A DNA stretch of 64,000 nt, taken from NCBI RefSeq assembly GCF_000337195.1, contig NZ_AOID01000044.1:1-64000 (forward strand), written 5' to 3'. Position 1 is the first letter of the stretch, and the number at the start of each line of letters is the position of its first letter. A program made the translations under genes and the position numbers. The stretch comes from Natrinema versiforme JCM 10478 (lineage in GTDB: Archaea; Halobacteriota; Halobacteria; Halobacteriales; Natrialbaceae). Below the pieces are notes generated by a model. The model saw only the letters and a list, made by a program, of their open reading frames with translations, made no database searches and was not told the origin of the DNA. Shown here in pieces: positions 7,475 to 44,798 of this stretch.

Positions 7475-7759
7475 TCATTCGATTTCTAGCGCGCCGTCGC
7501 TCTCCCCGCCCTCATCGGTCTCGTCCCACTCGAGTTCGAACTCGACGCTCAATTCGCCGGGGCCGTCGGCCGGCCCCTCGCGTTCGGCTTTGACCTCGAA
7601 GGTCGGCCGAGCCGGCGGCTCGAGGGTCACGGACTCGGAGCCGGCCGTGAGCGTGATCGCCTCGCCGGCGTCTAAGTTGTCCGCGACGCGGCGGAGCAGC
7701 GATGCGATTTCCGCTCGGTCCCGGTCGCTCTCGGATTTGAAGAGTACGTCTTCGGGCAT
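7475..7759 (-). CDS. Amphi-Trp domain protein
   Basis: 94 residues. The N-terminal MPEDVLFKSESDRDRAEIAS, then LRRVADNLDAGEAITLTAG and SVTLEPPARPTFEVKAERE, match the haloarchaeal amphi-Trp domain family (small alpha/beta proteins of unknown function). The family's final E-x-E-L-E-W strand is present near residue 77, followed by a short acidic tail. It lies downstream of the nitrite reductase gene in the same direction, 81 nt from its stop, so read-through is possible, though no functional link is known. Confidence 0.8.
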   Translation of the reverse strand: MPEDVLFKSESDRDRAEIASLLRRVADNLDAGEAITLTAGSESVTLEPPARPTFEVKAEREGPADGPGELSVEFELEWDETDEGGESDGALEIE

Positions 7760-28537: not shown

Positions 28538-28613
28538 GGGCGGGACTACGACCACCGGACCCTTGGGCGTTCCTCTCTCGGACTCGAGCCGGCGTGGCCG
28601 GACAATCGGCCGC

Positions 28614-35815: not shown

Positions 35816-36664
35816 TTACTTGGGACCGGCGTGGCTCGGCGGGCCGCCACCGCTGCCGCCGTCGTCCCCGTCGTCCCCGTCATCGTCGTCTTCATCGTCC
35901 TCATCGTCAGCGTCCTCGACGTCCGCATCCTCGTCATCGCTGTCGTCAGTCTCGTTAGCGTCGTCGGCGTCATCACCAGCCGACGGCCCGGCATCGCTCG
36001 GCGGGCCTCGCTCATCGCTATCTTCGTCTTCGTCGTCATCAGCGTCGCTTGGCGGGCCGGCGTGCTCGGGCGGGCCGCGCTTGTCGTCGTCAGTCTCGTT
36101 AGCGTCGTCGTCATCAGCGTCGCCGGGCGGGCCGGCGTGACTCGGCGGGCCGGCGTGGCTCGGCGCGTTCCCCGGGTTGTTCGCGACGACGAAGCTCGCG
36201 ACCGAGAGGCCGACCGACTCGTTGGAGTCGTTCTGCTGGCTCTCGGCGTACTCGGAGACGAGCGCACCGAAGTTCGTCGCGGTCTCGTTGTCAGACTCGT
36301 TGTCCGCGGTCTCGTTGCCGTCGAGGTCGTCGGTTTCGTTCGCGTCAGTTTCGTTGTCGGCTAACTCCTCGTCCGACTCGTTGTCGTCGTCGGTCTCGTT
36401 GTCAGCCAACTCCTCGTCCGAGTCGTCGTCATCGGTCTCGTTGTCGGCCGATTCGTTGTCGTCAGCCGTTTCGTTGTCGTCTAGCTCGTCCGTCTCGTTG
36501 TCGTCAGTCGTCTCGTTTTGCTGAATCAGCGAGGGACTGACATCGGCGCTATCGACGGAGCCCGCGTCAGCGGCCCCCGTATTCGCCGCTGCGGTCAGCG
36601 GTGCGAACACGGACGCACACAGTGCGACCGTCAATACGAGTGCGAACAGCTGTTTTCGTCTCAT
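35816..36664 (-). CDS. Secreted acidic low-complexity protein, densely N-glycosylatable
   Basis: 282 residues. A signal peptide (MRRKQLFALVLTVALCASVFAPLTAAA, given here as a basic start, a hydrophobic core at about 7-24 and A-x-A cleavage) precedes an extended acidic chain. Residues 45-150 contain repeated D-N-E-T/S units; I count 16 N-x-S/T sequons over the whole protein. The second half repeats GPPSHAGPP/GPPSDAGPS blocks separated by runs of D/E. No fold is expected apart from a short core (FGALVSEYAESQQN, SVGLSVASFVVANN). A mucin-like surface or envelope protein is inferred. No C-terminal anchor is seen. Confidence 0.75.
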   Translation of the reverse strand: MRRKQLFALVLTVALCASVFAPLTAAANTGAADAGSVDSADVSPSLIQQNETTDDNETDELDDNETADDNESADNETDDDDSDEELADNETDDDNESDEELADNETDANETDDLDGNETADNESDNETATNFGALVSEYAESQQNDSNESVGLSVASFVVANNPGNAPSHAGPPSHAGPPGDADDDDANETDDDKRGPPEHAGPPSDADDDEDEDSDERGPPSDAGPSAGDDADDANETDDSDDEDADVEDADDEDDEDDDDGDDGDDGGSGGGPPSHAGPK

Positions 36665-36793
36665 CTCGAGTCGAACATTCACGGATCCCTGAATAAACCC
36701 CGTCGGCGGTTCGGTCAGTTCGCCGATCAGTTTCGAGGAGTTAGAATTGTTTATACAGTTTATTGCTGCTTTTGAGCGTTCAACAGTCGTTCA

Positions 36794-38940: not shown

Positions 38941-41535
38941 TCAGCGCCGGAGCCGGCCGAGCAGTTCGTAGTCCCGATCCGGCGTGTACCGGCGGAACAG
39001 CAGGCTGTTCGAGAGGACCGACACCGACGACAGCGCCATCGCGCCGGCCGCGAGCACGGGCTGGAGCAGGCCCAGCGAGGCCAGCGGGATCATCGCGGTG
39101 TTGTAGCCCAGCGCCCAGACGAGGTTCTGCTTGATCTTCGCCAGCGTGGCCTCCGAGATTCGAATCGCCTTCACCACGTCGAGCGGATCGTCCCGCATCA
39201 GGGTCACGTCCGCGGCCTCGATGGCCACGTCCGTCCCAGAGCCGATGGCGGTGCCGACGTGGGCGACGGCGAGCGCGGGCGCGTCGTTGACCCCGTCGCC
39301 GACCATCATCGCCTTGCGGCCCGTCGACTGGATGTCCTCGACGGCGTCGGCCTTGTCCTCCGGCAGCACGCCGGCACGGACGTTGTCGGGATCGATCCCC
39401 ACTCGCTCGGCGACGGCGCGGGCCGTCCGCTCGTTGTCGCCGGTGATCAGCATGACATCCAGCCCGCGCTCGCGCAGGTCGCCGACCGCGTCGGCCGAAC
39501 TCTCCTTGACCGTGTCGGCGTCCGCGACCACGCCCGCGACCGCGCCGTCGACCGCGACCAGCATCGCCGTCTTCCCCTCGCTTTCGAGCCGTTCCATCTC
39601 GTCGGCGACGGGCGCGGGATCGACGCCCTCGCCCTCGAGGAGCCGCCGGTTGCCGACCAGCACCTCGCGGCCCTCGAGGGTCGCCCGGACGCCCTGTCCG
39701 GGGACGTTCTCGAACGCCTCGGGATCGGCTAGCTCGAGGCCGCGTTCCTCGGCCCCCTCGACGATGGCCTGTGCGAGCGGGTGTTCGCTGTTGCGCTCGG
39801 CGCTGGCGGCCAGTCGGAGCACCTCGCTCTCCTCGAGGCGTTCCCTTGTCGCCACCGCACCACCGTCTGTCGCCGGTTCGCCGCCGTCGGGTTCGGGTCC
39901 GCCGTCCTCGAGCGCGACCACGTCGGTCAGCGTCATCTCGCCGGTGGTCAGCGTCCCGGTCTTGTCGAAGACGACGGTATCGACGTCTCGCGCGCGCTCT
40001 AAGATGTCACCGCCCTTGAACAGGACGCCGTTCTGTGCGCCAAGCGTGGAGCCGACCATCGTCGCGGCGGGCGTCGCCAGCCCGAGCGCGCAGGGGCAGG
40101 CGATCAGCACCGCGGAGGCGAAGACGACGACCGCGAACTCGAACGTCGAGAGCGCGTTCGGACCGCCGCCGACCAGGTCCAGCACCGGCACGGCGTCAAC
40201 GACGCCGGCGAGCGTCGTCGGGAACAGGAACCAGACCAGCCCCCAGAAGATCGCGTTGAGGATGACGGCGGGGACGAAGTACGCCGAGATCCGGTCCGCG
40301 AGGTTCTGAATGTCGGGCTGGCGAGACTGGGCCTCCTTGACGGTCTGGACGATCCCCTGCAGGGCCGTGTCCGAGCCAACCTTGGTCGCCTCGACGACCA
40401 GCACGCCGTTCTCGTTGATCGTCGAGCCGATCACCTCGTCGCCCTCTTCCTTCTCGACGGGCACTGACTCGCCGGTCACCATCGACTCGTCGACCGCCGA
40501 CTGGCCGTCCACGACGACGCCGTCGGTCGGCACCTTCTCGCCGGGCCGAACCTTCATCCGGTCGCCGACATCGACATCCTCGAGTTCGACCTCTCGCTCG
40601 GTGCCGTCCTCGTCGACCAGCGTCGCCGTCTCGGCTTCCATCTCGAGGAGTTTCCGCAGAGCGTCGCTGGCCTGGCCCTTCGAGCGGGCCTCGAGGTAGT
40701 TGCCCAGCGTGATGAACACGAGGATCATCGCGGCGGTGTCGAAGTAGAGGTTGCCCGCCAGCAGGCCCAGTAAGACCACGAGGCTGTAGAAATACGCCGT
40801 CGACGAGCCAAGCGCGATCAACACATCCATGTTGGCGGTGCGATTGCGTACCAGCGCCGTGTAGGAGTTGACGAGGAACTCCCGGCCCAGCAGGACGTAG
40901 ACCGGCGTCGCGAGCAGGAACTCGACCCAGCCGAAGGAGACGCCGAAGACAGTCTCGGGAACATAGGTCCCGCCAAGCAGGAACTTGTCGGCAAGGAAGA
41001 ACAGGAACGGAGCCGACAACACCGCGCCGAAGATCGTCAGCCGGCGCTGTTTGCGGATCTCAGCTTGGCGGGCGGCGTCGCGCCGATCCTGATCCGACTC
41101 CTCATCGCCGCCTTCGTCGCGGACGGGCGTGTAGCCGGCGTCCTCGATGGCCGCGTAGAGGGCCTCGAGCGAGACGTCTGCCGGGTTGTACGCGACGGTC
41201 GCCTCGTCGGTGGCGTAGTTGACCTCCGCGTCGATGACGCCGGGGACGTCCTCGAGGGCCGCCTCGTTGGTTTCGGCGCAGTTCGCGCAGCTCATGTCGG
41301 TGATCCCGATCGAACGGCTCGCGCGGTCGGCCTCGTAGCCGGCCTCGTCGATCGTCTCGTAGATCTCGGCCAGCGAGATCGTCTCGGGATCGTAGTCGAC
41401 ACTCCCGTCGTCGGTCGCGTAATTGGCGTTCGCTTCCGCCACGCCGTCTCGGGACTCCAGGGCCTCGCTGATTGTCTGCGAACAGTTCGCACAGCTCATG
41501 CCCCGGATGTCCAGGTGTGCGGTCCGGGTACTCAT
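38941..41535 (-). CDS. copA: Copper-type P1B ATPase CopA with two HMA domains
   Basis: 864 residues. Two N-terminal metal-binding domains: GMSCANC (C15, C18) and DMSCANC (C83, C86). Eight membrane helices are expected. Phosphatase loop TGES 354-357, transport site CPC at 480-482 ([11 protein letters not shown]), phosphorylation site DKTGT 524-528, and hinge [10 protein letters not shown] near 775. CPC with CxxC HMA domains indicates Cu(I) efflux; silver may also be moved. It sits with an AsnC-TRASH regulator and a CopZ-like chaperone. The upstream region carries two candidate operators. Confidence 0.93.
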
Positions 41536-41576
41536 TACTGGGTTCTAGGGGACCACGCCTTACCCCCTTTACTGGT

Positions 41577-41588
41577 CGGAATCCAAAG
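41577..41588. promoter_or_regulatory. Candidate metal operator upstream of copA, site 1
   Basis: Reads CTTTGGATTCCG on the minus strand, 42-53 nt upstream of the copA start. It shares TTGGATTCC with the perfect palindrome at 44347-44357 upstream of the SHOCT gene and resembles the site at 42254. Likely position for control of copA. Confidence 0.45.
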
Positions 41589-41605
41589 CCCAGCGCGGTG
41601 CGTAG

Positions 41606-41619
41606 CTTCGGATCGAAAG
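41606..41619. promoter_or_regulatory. Candidate metal operator upstream of copA, site 2
   Basis: CTTCGGATCGAAAG, an imperfect inverted repeat with CTT/AAG ends like those of the site at 42254-42268. It lies directly next to the regulator gene's stop codon, about 71-84 nt upstream of the copA start. Confidence 0.35.
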
Positions 41620-42210
41620 TCAGACCCCTTTCTCGAGCCGGTCGTAGCGGTCCTCGAACCGACCCTGACAGGACTGACAGCAGAAGTGATACACCTCGCC
41701 GTCGATCCGGCTCGATTCCCCCTCACTGTCGACCGTATTGTCACACTCCGCGCAGGTGAGCGCGAACTGCGTGCCCTCGAGCGAGGGCGTCCACTCGGCG
41801 TCGTCGACCAGCGTCACGTCGTAGTCGATGCCGTCGGCGTCGGGGAGCAGTCCCGCGAGCCACTCGCGGACGCCGTTGACCTGTGCGCGGGCGTAGAACC
41901 AGATTTCGCCGTCGGCGGTGAGAAACACGTGCTCGACGGCGTCGGCCTCGGCGGCCGCCGTCCGGCAGTCCTCGACCGCGTCCGGGGGCGCGGTCACCTG
42001 TACGAACACCGGCACCCCCGCTCGGAGCTGTGACTGGTCGACGTCGAGGGTGAACCGGTTGATGATCCCGGCGTCCTCGAGGCGGGCGACGCGGTCCGAG
42101 ACCGCGGGACCGGAGAGGTCGACTTCGGCGGCGATCTCGCTGAACGGCCGCCGGGCGTTCTCGCCCAGCAGTCGCAGGATCGCCATGTCGGTTTCGTCGA
42201 GGTCGCGCAT
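41620..42210 (-). CDS. Lrp/AsnC-family regulator with C-terminal TRASH metal-binding domain
   Basis: 196 residues. N-terminal AsnC winged helix (LDETDMAILRLLGENARRPFSEIAAEVDLSGPAVSDRVARLEDAGII), then a central Lrp-type alpha/beta part (about 60-140). C-terminal TRASH domain with C-x2-C ... C-x3-C ligands (TCAECDN ... YHFCCQSCQGRF). TRASH domains sense or carry metals, and archaeal AsnC-TRASH proteins such as the copper-responsive regulators of Sulfolobus and Halobacterium control copA. It lies between copA (84 nt downstream, same strand) and the chaperone gene (divergent), so it probably regulates both. Confidence 0.9.
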   Translation of the reverse strand: MRDLDETDMAILRLLGENARRPFSEIAAEVDLSGPAVSDRVARLEDAGIINRFTLDVDQSQLRAGVPVFVQVTAPPDAVEDCRTAAAEADAVEHVFLTADGEIWFYARAQVNGVREWLAGLLPDADGIDYDVTLVDDAEWTPSLEGTQFALTCAECDNTVDSEGESSRIDGEVYHFCCQSCQGRFEDRYDRLEKGV

Positions 42211-42253
42211 ACGCTTCGTTCGTCCCGGCCACCAAAGAGCGTGGCGGCAGTGA

Positions 42254-42268
42254 CTTTGGAATTCGAAG
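42254..42268. promoter_or_regulatory. Candidate operator between regulator and chaperone genes
   Basis: CTTTGGAATTCGAAG, an imperfect palindrome 44-58 nt upstream of the AsnC-TRASH gene and about 70-83 nt upstream of the chaperone. It shares the CTTTGGA start with the copA site on the other strand. Well placed for autoregulation. Confidence 0.45.
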
Positions 42269-42336
42269 CTATATTCGCCAGCAGGTTAGCGCCGGAAGGG
42301 ATAAGGCACAAAGGAGAGCTGCCCCTATACACTTGT

Positions 42337-42534
42337 ATGAGTCAGACGCTCACCGTCGAAGGCATGTCGTGTGAACACTGCGAACAGACCGTCGAAGAGG
42401 CGCTCGAGGGCGTCGACGGCGTCGAGTCGGCTGATGCCGATCGGGAGAGCGAGCGGGCGACCGTCGAGGGGGACGCGGACCCGCAGACGCTCGTCAGCGC
42501 GGTCGACGAGGCGGGCTACGACGCGTCCGCGTAG
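42337..42534 (+). CDS. CopZ-like heavy-metal chaperone (HMA domain)
   Basis: 65 residues forming one HMA domain: QTLTVEGMSCEHCEQTVEEAL with the CxxC metal site at C12-x2-C15 (GMSCEHC), and a final VDEAGYDAS. It delivers Cu(I) to the CopA HMA domains, as known for CopZ/Atx1. ATG 42337 starts exactly at the domain; an open frame runs upstream but is non-coding in character. TATA-like GGATAAGG and CTATAC elements precede it. Confidence 0.9.
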   Translation: MSQTLTVEGMSCEHCEQTVEEALEGVDGVESADADRESERATVEGDADPQTLVSAVDEAGYDASA

Positions 42535-42626
42535 CTCGATCTCGAGTCGCGGGCGGCCGGACTGCGATAGTCGCTTCCAACCGTCCGGTACCGACCGGAC
42601 CCCGTTTTTTCGGCCACTGAGGGCGG

Positions 42627-44024
42627 TCAGTGGTGATCGTGCGACGACTCGGCGTCCGAAACCCGCGGCGGGTGCGCCGCGAAGTCGGCCGGCGCGTCCT
42701 CGAACGTCCGCTTGCAGGCGGTCGAACAGAAGTAGTAGGTCTCGCCGTCGTGTGCGGCGCTCGGGCCGTCGTCGTCCGTTCGCATCCCGCAGACCGGGTC
42801 GCGGTACTGTCCGGGGGCACCGAGCCCGCGACGGTACACGAACAGGAGGAACCCGGAGACGGCGAAGGCGACGAGGTTGAGATAGAAGGTGTAGTTCAGT
42901 TCGAAGTACCGCTGCTCGGTCGCCGTCTCGCCGCCGGCCAGGTTCGGGACGATGCCGAGCGCGTCGAACAGCAGTTCCATGAGAAAGCCGGTAAACGCCA
43001 TCGTCACGAAGAAGACGCCGAGGATGTACAGCATGACTTTCCAGCCGTAGTACTTCCGGTAGACGTTCAACACCGGCACCGTGATGAGATCGGCGTAGAC
43101 GAACGCGATGACGCCGGCGAAGCTGATCCCACCGCCCCAGAGGGCGACCGCGAAGGGAACGTTGCCCATGCTCCCGACGAAGCTGAGGACGGCGATCGCG
43201 ACACCCATGACCGCGTTCTCAGCAGTCACGAGCAGGCCGTCACCTCCGAGGAACAGCGCGTTCCAGACCGACTGGGGGACGAACACGATGACGAAGCCCG
43301 CGATGAGAAACCCCGCGACGACGTCTTTCCAGATCATCGACCACTCCTTCCGGTACTGGTTCGCAACCTTGTACCAGCCGCCCCACGACCGGAGTTCGTC
43401 GGACCACTCGCCGCTGCTTGCTGTCTGCTGCCGATAGGTCTCGAGACAGCCCTCGGAACAGAACCGCAGCGTCTCGCCGCCGTCGGTCACGATCGCGTGT
43501 TCGTCCGTCCCCTCCATCCCGCAGGTCGGGTCCGTTATCCCGCCGCTCTCGCGATCCTCGCGCTCGAGTTCCGCGCGGACCTCGTCGAACAACGGTTCGG
43601 GGAGCGTCAGCCGGACGATGACCGCCATGACCGCGATGAGGACGAGGCCACCGAGCAGTTCCGCGACGAGGAACTCCCAGCCCAGAAAGAGCAGGATCAT
43701 CAGTCCGAGTTCGACGATGAGGTTCGTCGAGGCGAACATGAACGCGAGGACGTTCACCGCGTGCGCGCCCTTTGCGAACAGTCCCTTCCCGATGGCGACG
43801 GCACCGAAGCTACAGCCGCTGCTGGCCGCGCCAAAGGCCGTCGCCGTCGCGAGGCTCGAGAAGTCGTCTTCCCCGAGAACGCGCGCCATCCGCTCTTTCG
43901 AGACGTACACCTGTACGAGGCTGGTGATCGTCAGTCCCATGACGATCGCCCACGCCGCCGTCCAGAGGAATCCGACGCCGATCCGGAGCGACTCGAGGAC
44001 GCCCTCGGCGAGTGGCGGTTCCAT
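42627..44024 (-). CDS. DUF318-type permease with two embedded TRASH/YHS-like metal domains
   Basis: 465 residues. Permease halves with about four membrane helices each (1-145 and 225-405). The first half carries the conserved SSGCSFG (69-75) followed by AVAIGKGLFAKGAHAVNVLAFMFASTN. Between the halves lies a Cys-rich module at 166-193 (DPTCGM ... RFCSEGC) and at the C-terminus a second one starting near 409 (DPVCGM ... YYFCSTAC), ending with a His-rich tail (SSHDHH). D-P-x-C-G-M with F-C-x-x-x-C is the TRASH/YHS pattern. DUF318 proteins export metal or metalloid species in some cases; here copper or another soft metal is inferred from the neighbours. ATG 44024 fits the topology. Confidence 0.85.
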   Translation of the reverse strand: MEPPLAEGVLESLRIGVGFLWTAAWAIVMGLTITSLVQVYVSKERMARVLGEDDFSSLATATAFGAASSGCSFGAVAIGKGLFAKGAHAVNVLAFMFASTNLIVELGLMILLFLGWEFLVAELLGGLVLIAVMAVIVRLTLPEPLFDEVRAELEREDRESGGITDPTCGMEGTDEHAIVTDGGETLRFCSEGCLETYRQQTASSGEWSDELRSWGGWYKVANQYRKEWSMIWKDVVAGFLIAGFVIVFVPQSVWNALFLGGDGLLVTAENAVMGVAIAVLSFVGSMGNVPFAVALWGGGISFAGVIAFVYADLITVPVLNVYRKYYGWKVMLYILGVFFVTMAFTGFLMELLFDALGIVPNLAGGETATEQRYFELNYTFYLNLVAFAVSGFLLFVYRRGLGAPGQYRDPVCGMRTDDDGPSAAHDGETYYFCSTACKRTFEDAPADFAAHPPRVSDAESSHDHH

Positions 44025-44053
44025 ATGTAGTACGTCGGAGGAATCGCCTATTG

Positions 44054-44073
44054 CGATTTCCCTTGGGAAATCG
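44054..44073. promoter_or_regulatory. 20-bp inverted repeat upstream of the permease gene
   Basis: CGATTTCCC-TT-GGGAAATCG: nine-base perfect arms, two-base spacer, 30-49 nt upstream of the permease start codon, where a BRE/TATA or operator should sit. The strongest palindrome in the metal locus. Confidence 0.6.
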
Positions 44074-44346
44074 ATGGCGTCCGCCATCCGGAACGACGGG
44101 ATCGAAAGCGGCCACCGAACTGCGGGGCGGTAGACGACACCGGACCGTACGGCGACACGCAGCACCCGGTGTTGCGGGCGTTAAGCGGCATTTATCGGCG
44201 TATGGGCACCGTTCTGTCACGGCCGTCTCGCGTCGGGCCCCGACCGGGCGGTGGGTACCCCACTATATCAGCGACGAATCGCGGCCCGATCACGCCACTG
44301 GCCGGCGATAGAACTGTGAATGTCGAAGTGAGCCGGTAGCCAAACG

Positions 44347-44357
44347 TTGGATTCCAA
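44347..44357. promoter_or_regulatory. Palindrome TTGGA-T-TCCAA upstream of the SHOCT gene
   Basis: Perfect 5+1+5 palindrome 73-83 nt before the SHOCT start. Nine of its eleven bases (TTGGATTCC) recur upstream of copA on the opposite strand. Candidate member of a metal regulon. Confidence 0.5.
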
Positions 44358-44429
44358 GGGAGAACCGCATTGAGTCACGAGACCGTACGCCTAGCTGGAG
44401 ACGGACCGCGCCGTCACCGGTGAGATCAC

Positions 44430-44798
44430 ATGGCTACCGACACACGCGACACGCGACTCGCCGCGATCGTCCTCGTCGCCATCGGCGTCCTCGTGGTGCT
44501 ACCGATGGCGTTCATGGGGTTCGGAACGATGGGAGCCGGCCCGATGATGGGCGGCATGTGGGGCCACGAGATGTGGAGCGGCGAGACGGCACCCGGCTGG
44601 CTGCCGCTCGTCGCCGTCCTGTTGCAGCTCCTGTTCGTCGCCGCCGTCGTCGGGGGCGGCTATCTCGTCTACCGGGCGATCGCCGGTGCGGACGACACCG
44701 ACCCGGCGCTCGAGGAACTGCGGCTGGCGTACGCTCGCGGCGAGCTGAGCGAGGAGGAGTACGAACAGCGACGAAACGCGCTCGATCGGGACACGTAA
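44430..44798 (+). CDS. Membrane protein with methionine/glycine-rich loop and SHOCT domain
   Basis: 122 residues. Membrane helix 1 (about 10-30), a loop rich in Met, Gly, His and Trp (FGTMGAGPMMGGMWGHEMW, about 31-50), helix 2 (about 58-85) and a C-terminal SHOCT motif (DPALEELRLAYARGELSEEEYEQRRNAL). Met- and His-rich extracytoplasmic loops are often copper-binding; with the copA region just upstream this is the best guess. SHOCT is a short oligomerisation helix pair. Next gene starts 9 nt after the stop. Confidence 0.75.
   Translation: MATDTRDTRLAAIVLVAIGVLVVLPMAFMGFGTMGAGPMMGGMWGHEMWSGETAPGWLPLVAVLLQLLFVAAVVGGGYLVYRAIAGADDTDPALEELRLAYARGELSEEEYEQRRNALDRDT

Follow-up and report, generated by a model that had tools for sequence, protein, structure and literature searches.

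The locus and its palindromic sites

Four intergenic places of one haloarchaeal locus carry a related palindrome, which raises the question of whether these sites are the operators of a common metal regulon and, if so, which protein binds them. The locus lies in the window, i.e., the whole 64-kb stretch of DNA that was analysed, of a source genome of 4.19 Mb in 72 contigs. Its gene order is copA (−), AsnC-TRASH regulator (−), HMA chaperone (+), ArsP_1/YHS permease (−), SHOCT membrane protein (+), a 212-aa protein with no Pfam hit, and hisG (Table 1). The regulator gene is contiguous with those of the copper ATPase and the HMA chaperone in the window and in most relatives, and the same linkage is seen in the annotation of Halobacterium hubeiense and Halopiger plasmids. 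By sequence, the nearest solved structures to the regulator are Lrp-family proteins such as 1i1g, consistent with a predicted Lrp fold. AsnC-TRASH loci were gathered from genomes of the family and from many further genomes of the order Halobacteriales. Haloterrigena sp. H1 has three copies of the entire HMA-asnC-copA-permease-SHOCT cluster, each on a different contig (L003, L004 and L010); the copA copy of L010 is apparently frameshifted. Elsewhere in the window (35816–36682, minus strand) lies the gene of a low-complexity protein that combines long acidic N/E/T/D repeats with repeats of glycine-proline.

All four palindromes described in the initial annotation were found where it had placed them, each being a 15-bp inverted repeat with the consensus CTTTSGAWTCSAAAG. 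The 9-mer TTGGATTCC, claimed to be identical at two of them, is exact at 41578–41586 (−) and 44347–44355 (+). Two copies in the window compare with 0.21 expected, but the 9-mer alone is modest evidence because 15 copies are spread over the 4.19 Mb and at least two copies also appeared in 2 of 100 shuffles. A symmetric 15-bp matrix, built from box A of relatives only, with the window excluded (consensus CTTTGGAATCCAAAG), ranked the four reported sites as the top four in 64 kb. The next one, at 7588, scored 11.0, and shuffled windows contained on average 0.45 sites with a score of at least 13. As a refinement, the two sites at copA form a pair 31 bp apart and are not independent.

Table 1. Genes and candidate promoter elements of the locus (window coordinates)
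Feature	Coordinates	Strand	Evidence
copA, Cu(I)-type P1B ATPase, two N-terminal HMA domains	38941..41535	−	Pfam PF00122, PF00702, PF00403; NCBIfam TIGR01511 copper-translocating P-type ATPase above cut-off
copA core promoter, AGTAAAG (weak TATA-like) to CCCCTA (start-site-like)	41546..41573	−	conserved in relatives
copA box B, CTTTGGATTCCGACC (initial annotation: 41577-41588), 31 bp from box A	41574..41588	−	matrix 13.2; score peaks at offset +31 over 57 non-redundant copA promoters
copA box A, CTTTCGATCCGAAGC (initial annotation: 41606-41619)	41605..41619	−	matrix 15.5; 1.30 bits column information in relatives vs 0.48 in spacer
AsnC/Lrp-type regulator, C-terminal TRASH domain, presumed binder	41620..42210	−	Pfam HTH_AsnC-type 2.4e-15, TRASH_HVO_1752_C 1.1e-25
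Box A common to divergent asnC and HMA promoters, CTTTGGAATTCGAAG	42254..42268	.	matrix 19.2, best in window; conserved at −56 to −61 of asnC in relatives
HMA box B, degenerate in window strain (GGTTAGCGCCGGAAG; relatives ..ATCGAAAG)	42284..42298	+	alignment of 33 relatives; copA+HMA model match 42254-42327, E=4.2e-8, whole genome
HMA-domain copper chaperone (CopZ-like)	42337..42534	+	Pfam HMA 8.9e-20; NCBIfam CopZ_AFE_1862 above cut-off
ArsP_1/SO_0444-like permease with YHS/TRASH-type domain	42627..44024	−	Pfam PF03773, PF04945; NCBIfam CuZnOut_SO0444 E=4.5e-19, below cut-off
Tentative permease box A half-site CTTTCGATCCCGTCG, −84 of permease start	44094..44108	−	weak (score 4.1, p=0.076); position shared by several relatives
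SHOCT box A, degenerate (CTGTGAATGTCGAAG)	44314..44328	+	31 bp from palindrome; model R1 match covers 44314-44387
SHOCT box B, contains perfect TTGGATTCCAA (44347-44357)	44345..44359	+	matrix 14.5; p<=0.02 box at −84/−85 in 6/9 SHOCT genes of same type, window included
Small membrane protein with SHOCT domain, presumed regulon member	44430..44798	+	Pfam SHOCT 7.1e-7

Paired boxes at copA promoters

In the closest relatives, the 84-bp copA leader contains box A (CTTTCGATTCSAAAG) and box B (CTTTGGATTYCGA) followed by CAGTAAAG and CCCCTA; in the window, AGTAAAG and CCCCTA would act as TATA element and start site, respectively. Both boxes stand out from the spacer in the relatives (1.30 and 1.19 bits per column against 0.48), and the block just downstream of box B reaches 1.59 bits.

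The comparison covered 127 distinct loci, 94 of them with an adjacent copA, a match at p<=0.02 being counted as a box. The initial annotation had proposed to set the motif against other DNA and against orthologous copA promoters, and both comparisons came out in its favour: a box is present at 86 of the 94 promoters, across families of Halobacteriales, versus 12 of 381 control stretches, and mostly lies 83–88 bp before the start codon. Grouped by identity of the regulator, boxes were found in 31/32 promoters at >=74% (partly training sequences), 42/47 at 60–74%, 11/12 at 50–60% and 2/3 below 50%, the last three groups having contributed nothing to the matrix. The few copA promoters without a detectable box include those of L253 and L255.

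Because of the shared ancestry of the loci, the counts do not represent independent events; the spacer that separates the two boxes, being variable, served as an internal control for this. When the score was scanned over the distance from box A, it peaked at 31 bp, both in the 57 non-redundant promoters and in the 41 outside the training group. In the latter, the second box at this offset had a mean score of −2.5 compared with a background of −24.6.

Promoters of the HMA, asnC, SHOCT and permease genes

The HMA promoter of relatives reads CTTTGGAATCCGAAG, then ..ATCGAAAG immediately before GCAGTAACG, and that of the SHOCT gene reads TTGGATTCCAAGGGAGAACCGCATTGAG with a degenerate distal box. 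The copA, HMA and SHOCT promoters align without gaps over 74 columns and have two box copies, one of them often degenerate, 30–31 bp apart, i.e., three helical turns on the same face of the helix. In each, the proximal box occupies the BRE position, directly next to a poor TATA-like element. A model of these three promoters from relatives, again with the window excluded (R1), found just three matches at E<=10 in the 4.19-Mb genome, with only the best first-pass candidates scored: copA (5.8e-12), SHOCT (4.4e-6) and HMA (2.3e-4). The genome scan suggested in the initial annotation thus returned to the copA-SHOCT locus in all three cases. With filters off, the window alone gave 8.8e-14 for copA, 3.3e-9 for HMA and 6.6e-8 for SHOCT. 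The next-best match there (28547–28588, −) is weak and partial (E=0.018), spanning box B to the start site.

The box between asnC and the HMA gene faces both promoters, and on the asnC side it adjoins a different TATA-like sequence. Of the 28 loci in the 60–74% identity group that have no HMA gene, 20 retain the box before asnC. Such frequent persistence 56–61 bp before asnC suggests that it also serves autoregulation, although VNG1179C mRNA of H. salinarum was reported as unchanged by copper (PMC3551603).

Membership of the SHOCT gene is a separate matter. The R1 match at its promoter reflects conservation and is not an independent match, since SHOCT orthologues were in the training set, and a model from copA and HMA promoters only (R2) recovered these two but missed the SHOCT promoter as a whole. 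The case for membership hence depends on a single strong palindrome that most relatives conserve. That the site is coincidental, and only those at copA and asnC/HMA functional, would fit the 15 genomic copies of TTGGATTCC, the failure of R2 and the weakness of the box in 3 of the 9 genes tested. Such a coincidence is nevertheless rather doubtful, as the box reaches p=0.000 both in the window and in L002, with p<=0.018 for a further four genes, always at −84/−85, and the SHOCT core promoter has the length and spacing of those of copA and HMA. At the permease promoter, weak half-site sequence is conserved in position, and the full two-box pattern was not detected.

Contig C60 of the source genome carries a second metal locus (L272, C60:66000–79509) with two P-type ATPases 36% identical to CopA, paralogous SHOCT (60%) and 212-aa (70%) genes, an amidohydrolase and a fragment of a permease; a strong copper box was not found there.

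The probable reader of the boxes

The AsnC-TRASH copper regulator of the locus (CopR/VNG1179C type), on sequence grounds the putative binder, very probably has its operators in these sites. Supporting this are the gene linkage, the asnC-side box in loci devoid of HMA and the published genetics of VNG1179C: copper induction of yvgX/copA in H. salinarum is reported to require this Lrp-TRASH orthologue (PMC3551603), and two HMA chaperones are placed within its regulon (PMC3551603; PMC4236453). In the 13 genomes of the genus of Halobacterium hubeiense, a box at p<=0.02 precedes 15 of 17 copA genes, nearly always at −83 to −88, including many loci without a regulator gene in the flank analysed. The metal regulon proposed in the initial annotation is supported and narrows to copper, with the permease promoter contributing only its weak, position-conserved half-site.

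Might another protein, such as an ArsR/MarR-type or a second Lrp regulator, bind the boxes, the AsnC-TRASH protein being a mere neighbour? Haloarchaea have several Lrp paralogues, some with similar motifs (PMC4236453), and binding by the AsnC-TRASH protein is itself putative. This appears quite unlikely, however: the regulator has a single match in the source genome at E<=1e-20, loci with no HMA gene keep the boxes next to asnC, the box is mostly missing from the loci of more distant TRASH-Lrp paralogues that have no copA, and VNG1179C is needed for copper induction of copA in H. salinarum (PMC3551603). Comparison of the recognition helices of box-positive and box-negative regulators was discarded as proof of the reader, for the two sets differ mainly at position 34 (Gly vs. 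Pro/Ala), which is not decisive.

A different objection is that the conservation reflects core elements (BRE/TATA/initiator) of haloarchaeal promoters that are strongly conserved as such, and no regulator's operator at all. Box B does abut the TATA-like element, and the block downstream of it is highly conserved (1.59 bits per column). Yet the palindromic box A lies 31 bp farther upstream beyond a variable spacer (0.48 bits), the box before asnC stands beside another TATA-like sequence, and a generic core promoter should yield many matches, whereas the model gave three in 4.19 Mb. We consider this explanation highly improbable.

Starting from the AsnC-TRASH protein as the reader, the following mechanism can be envisaged. 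An oligomer of Lrp-type dimers would span both in-phase boxes, and copper at the TRASH cysteines would turn the bound protein into an activator. The copper-bound regulator may then help to recruit TBP/TFB to the weak promoter, as likewise proposed for P. furiosus CopR (PMC7830388), so that CopA for export, the HMA protein for trafficking and the SHOCT protein are turned on, while the box between asnC and HMA would in addition provide autoregulation. The sign of regulation is uncertain because a related regulator of T. onnurineus was reported as a repressor (cited in PMC7830388).

Relation to known copper regulators

With an AsnC/Lrp HTH and a C-terminal TRASH domain, linkage to copper ATPase and HMA genes, and a palindrome directly upstream of the target core promoters, the locus is best filed as an archaeal TRASH-Lrp (CopR/VNG1179C) copper regulon. 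It shares with the VNG1179C regulon of H. salinarum (yvgX/copA, VNG0702H, VNG2581H) the regulator architecture and the target classes, a copper ATPase and HMA chaperones, and copA of the genus Halobacterium has the same box in the same position. In contrast, the H. salinarum regulator is encoded apart from copA, while the window genes are clustered, and the SHOCT gene is absent from the passages on the H. salinarum regulon. A ChIP-chip logo for VNG1179C is given in figure form only (PMC4236453 Fig. 1B), so that any identity of its motif with the box is conjectural.

P. furiosus CopR, also an Lrp-TRASH protein, activates copA from a palindrome directly upstream of the BRE at a poor TATA box and has a divergent regulator promoter (PMC7830388). 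Its cop-motif is TTNNCAWWWTGNNAA, whereas in the window a single base forms the centre of the core, TTTSGAWTCSAAA, and the fixed pair at 31-bp spacing is a feature of the haloarchaeal operator. An assignment of the boxes to the P. furiosus motif was rejected: CTTTSGAWTCSAAAG agrees with it in the outer TTNN..NNAA frame but differs in the centre. CopR/CopT of Saccharolobus/Sulfolobus are likewise TRASH-domain copper regulators of copA, but are distant proteins (~30% identity to Pyrococcus CopR; PMC7830388).

The regulator type and the copA and HMA targets are thus already known, whereas the spelled-out operator, its geometry and the membership of the SHOCT gene, perhaps of the permease, look new; the text of the literature searched mentioned neither the operator sequence, the fixed 31-bp pair nor the SHOCT gene.

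Boxes outside the locus and in other genomes

Allowing up to two mismatches, a single-box scan of the whole source genome found 16 places outside the locus versus 8 for a reversed control pattern; with single boxes only about twice as frequent as the control, one box alone is not diagnostic. None of the loose matches inspected lay at copper genes. Scans with the exact 9-mer or two mismatches were rejected as a sole test for being too unspecific, the matches inspected elsewhere falling in transposase-end repeats, coding sequence and unrelated promoters. The near-perfect box CTTTCGATTCCAAAA occurs at C34:5330, C34:5418, C31:46 and C49:44 within an 87–89-bp repeat at the end of a transposase-like gene, and this repeat could seed stray regulator sites.

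In other genomes, confident matches outside the asnC locus were mostly at copA, HMA, halocyanin and thioredoxin-halocyanin genes. Those inspected precede orphan HMA genes (L170, L199), copA or another Cu-type ATPase (L183, L197, L205), halocyanin (L171, L174) and thioredoxin-halocyanin (L198, L202, L204). The halocyanin and thioredoxin matches are the more independent ones, since such promoters were absent from the training set. Non-copper or ambiguous matches, mostly weaker, were those of L172, L175, L180–L182, L184, L200, L201, L203, L206 and L208–L211.

On balance, we lean towards a Halobacteriales-wide picture in which a TRASH-Lrp regulator would read a fixed two-box operator (15-bp palindromes three turns apart, the proximal one at a poor TATA box, where it takes the place of the BRE) that would also control genes new to the regulon: the SHOCT protein, possibly the SO_0444-like permease and, in some genomes, halocyanin/thioredoxin genes. 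TRASH-Lrp copper sensing is known genetically in Halobacterium, and an order-wide operator with fixed spacing makes archaeal Lrp activation at a weak TATA box testable. The same applies to a possible conversion of a bound repressor to an activator by copper, on which the Pyrococcus and Thermococcus reports disagree. Moreover, the operator can be used to look for copper regulons among hundreds of haloarchaea, and the two-box promoter is a candidate copper-inducible promoter.

A box-like promoter (CTTCAGATTCAAAAGGRGAATCKGATTAAATC) was also seen 181 bp before a 488-aa amidohydrolase gene in two genomes (G070 C2, L173; G071 C8, L171), a homologue of which is present in the C60 metal locus. On a plasmid of Halorussus halophilus (L270), an AsnC-TRASH gene stands beside plastocyanin/azurin-type, thioredoxin and multicopper oxidase genes and not beside copA.
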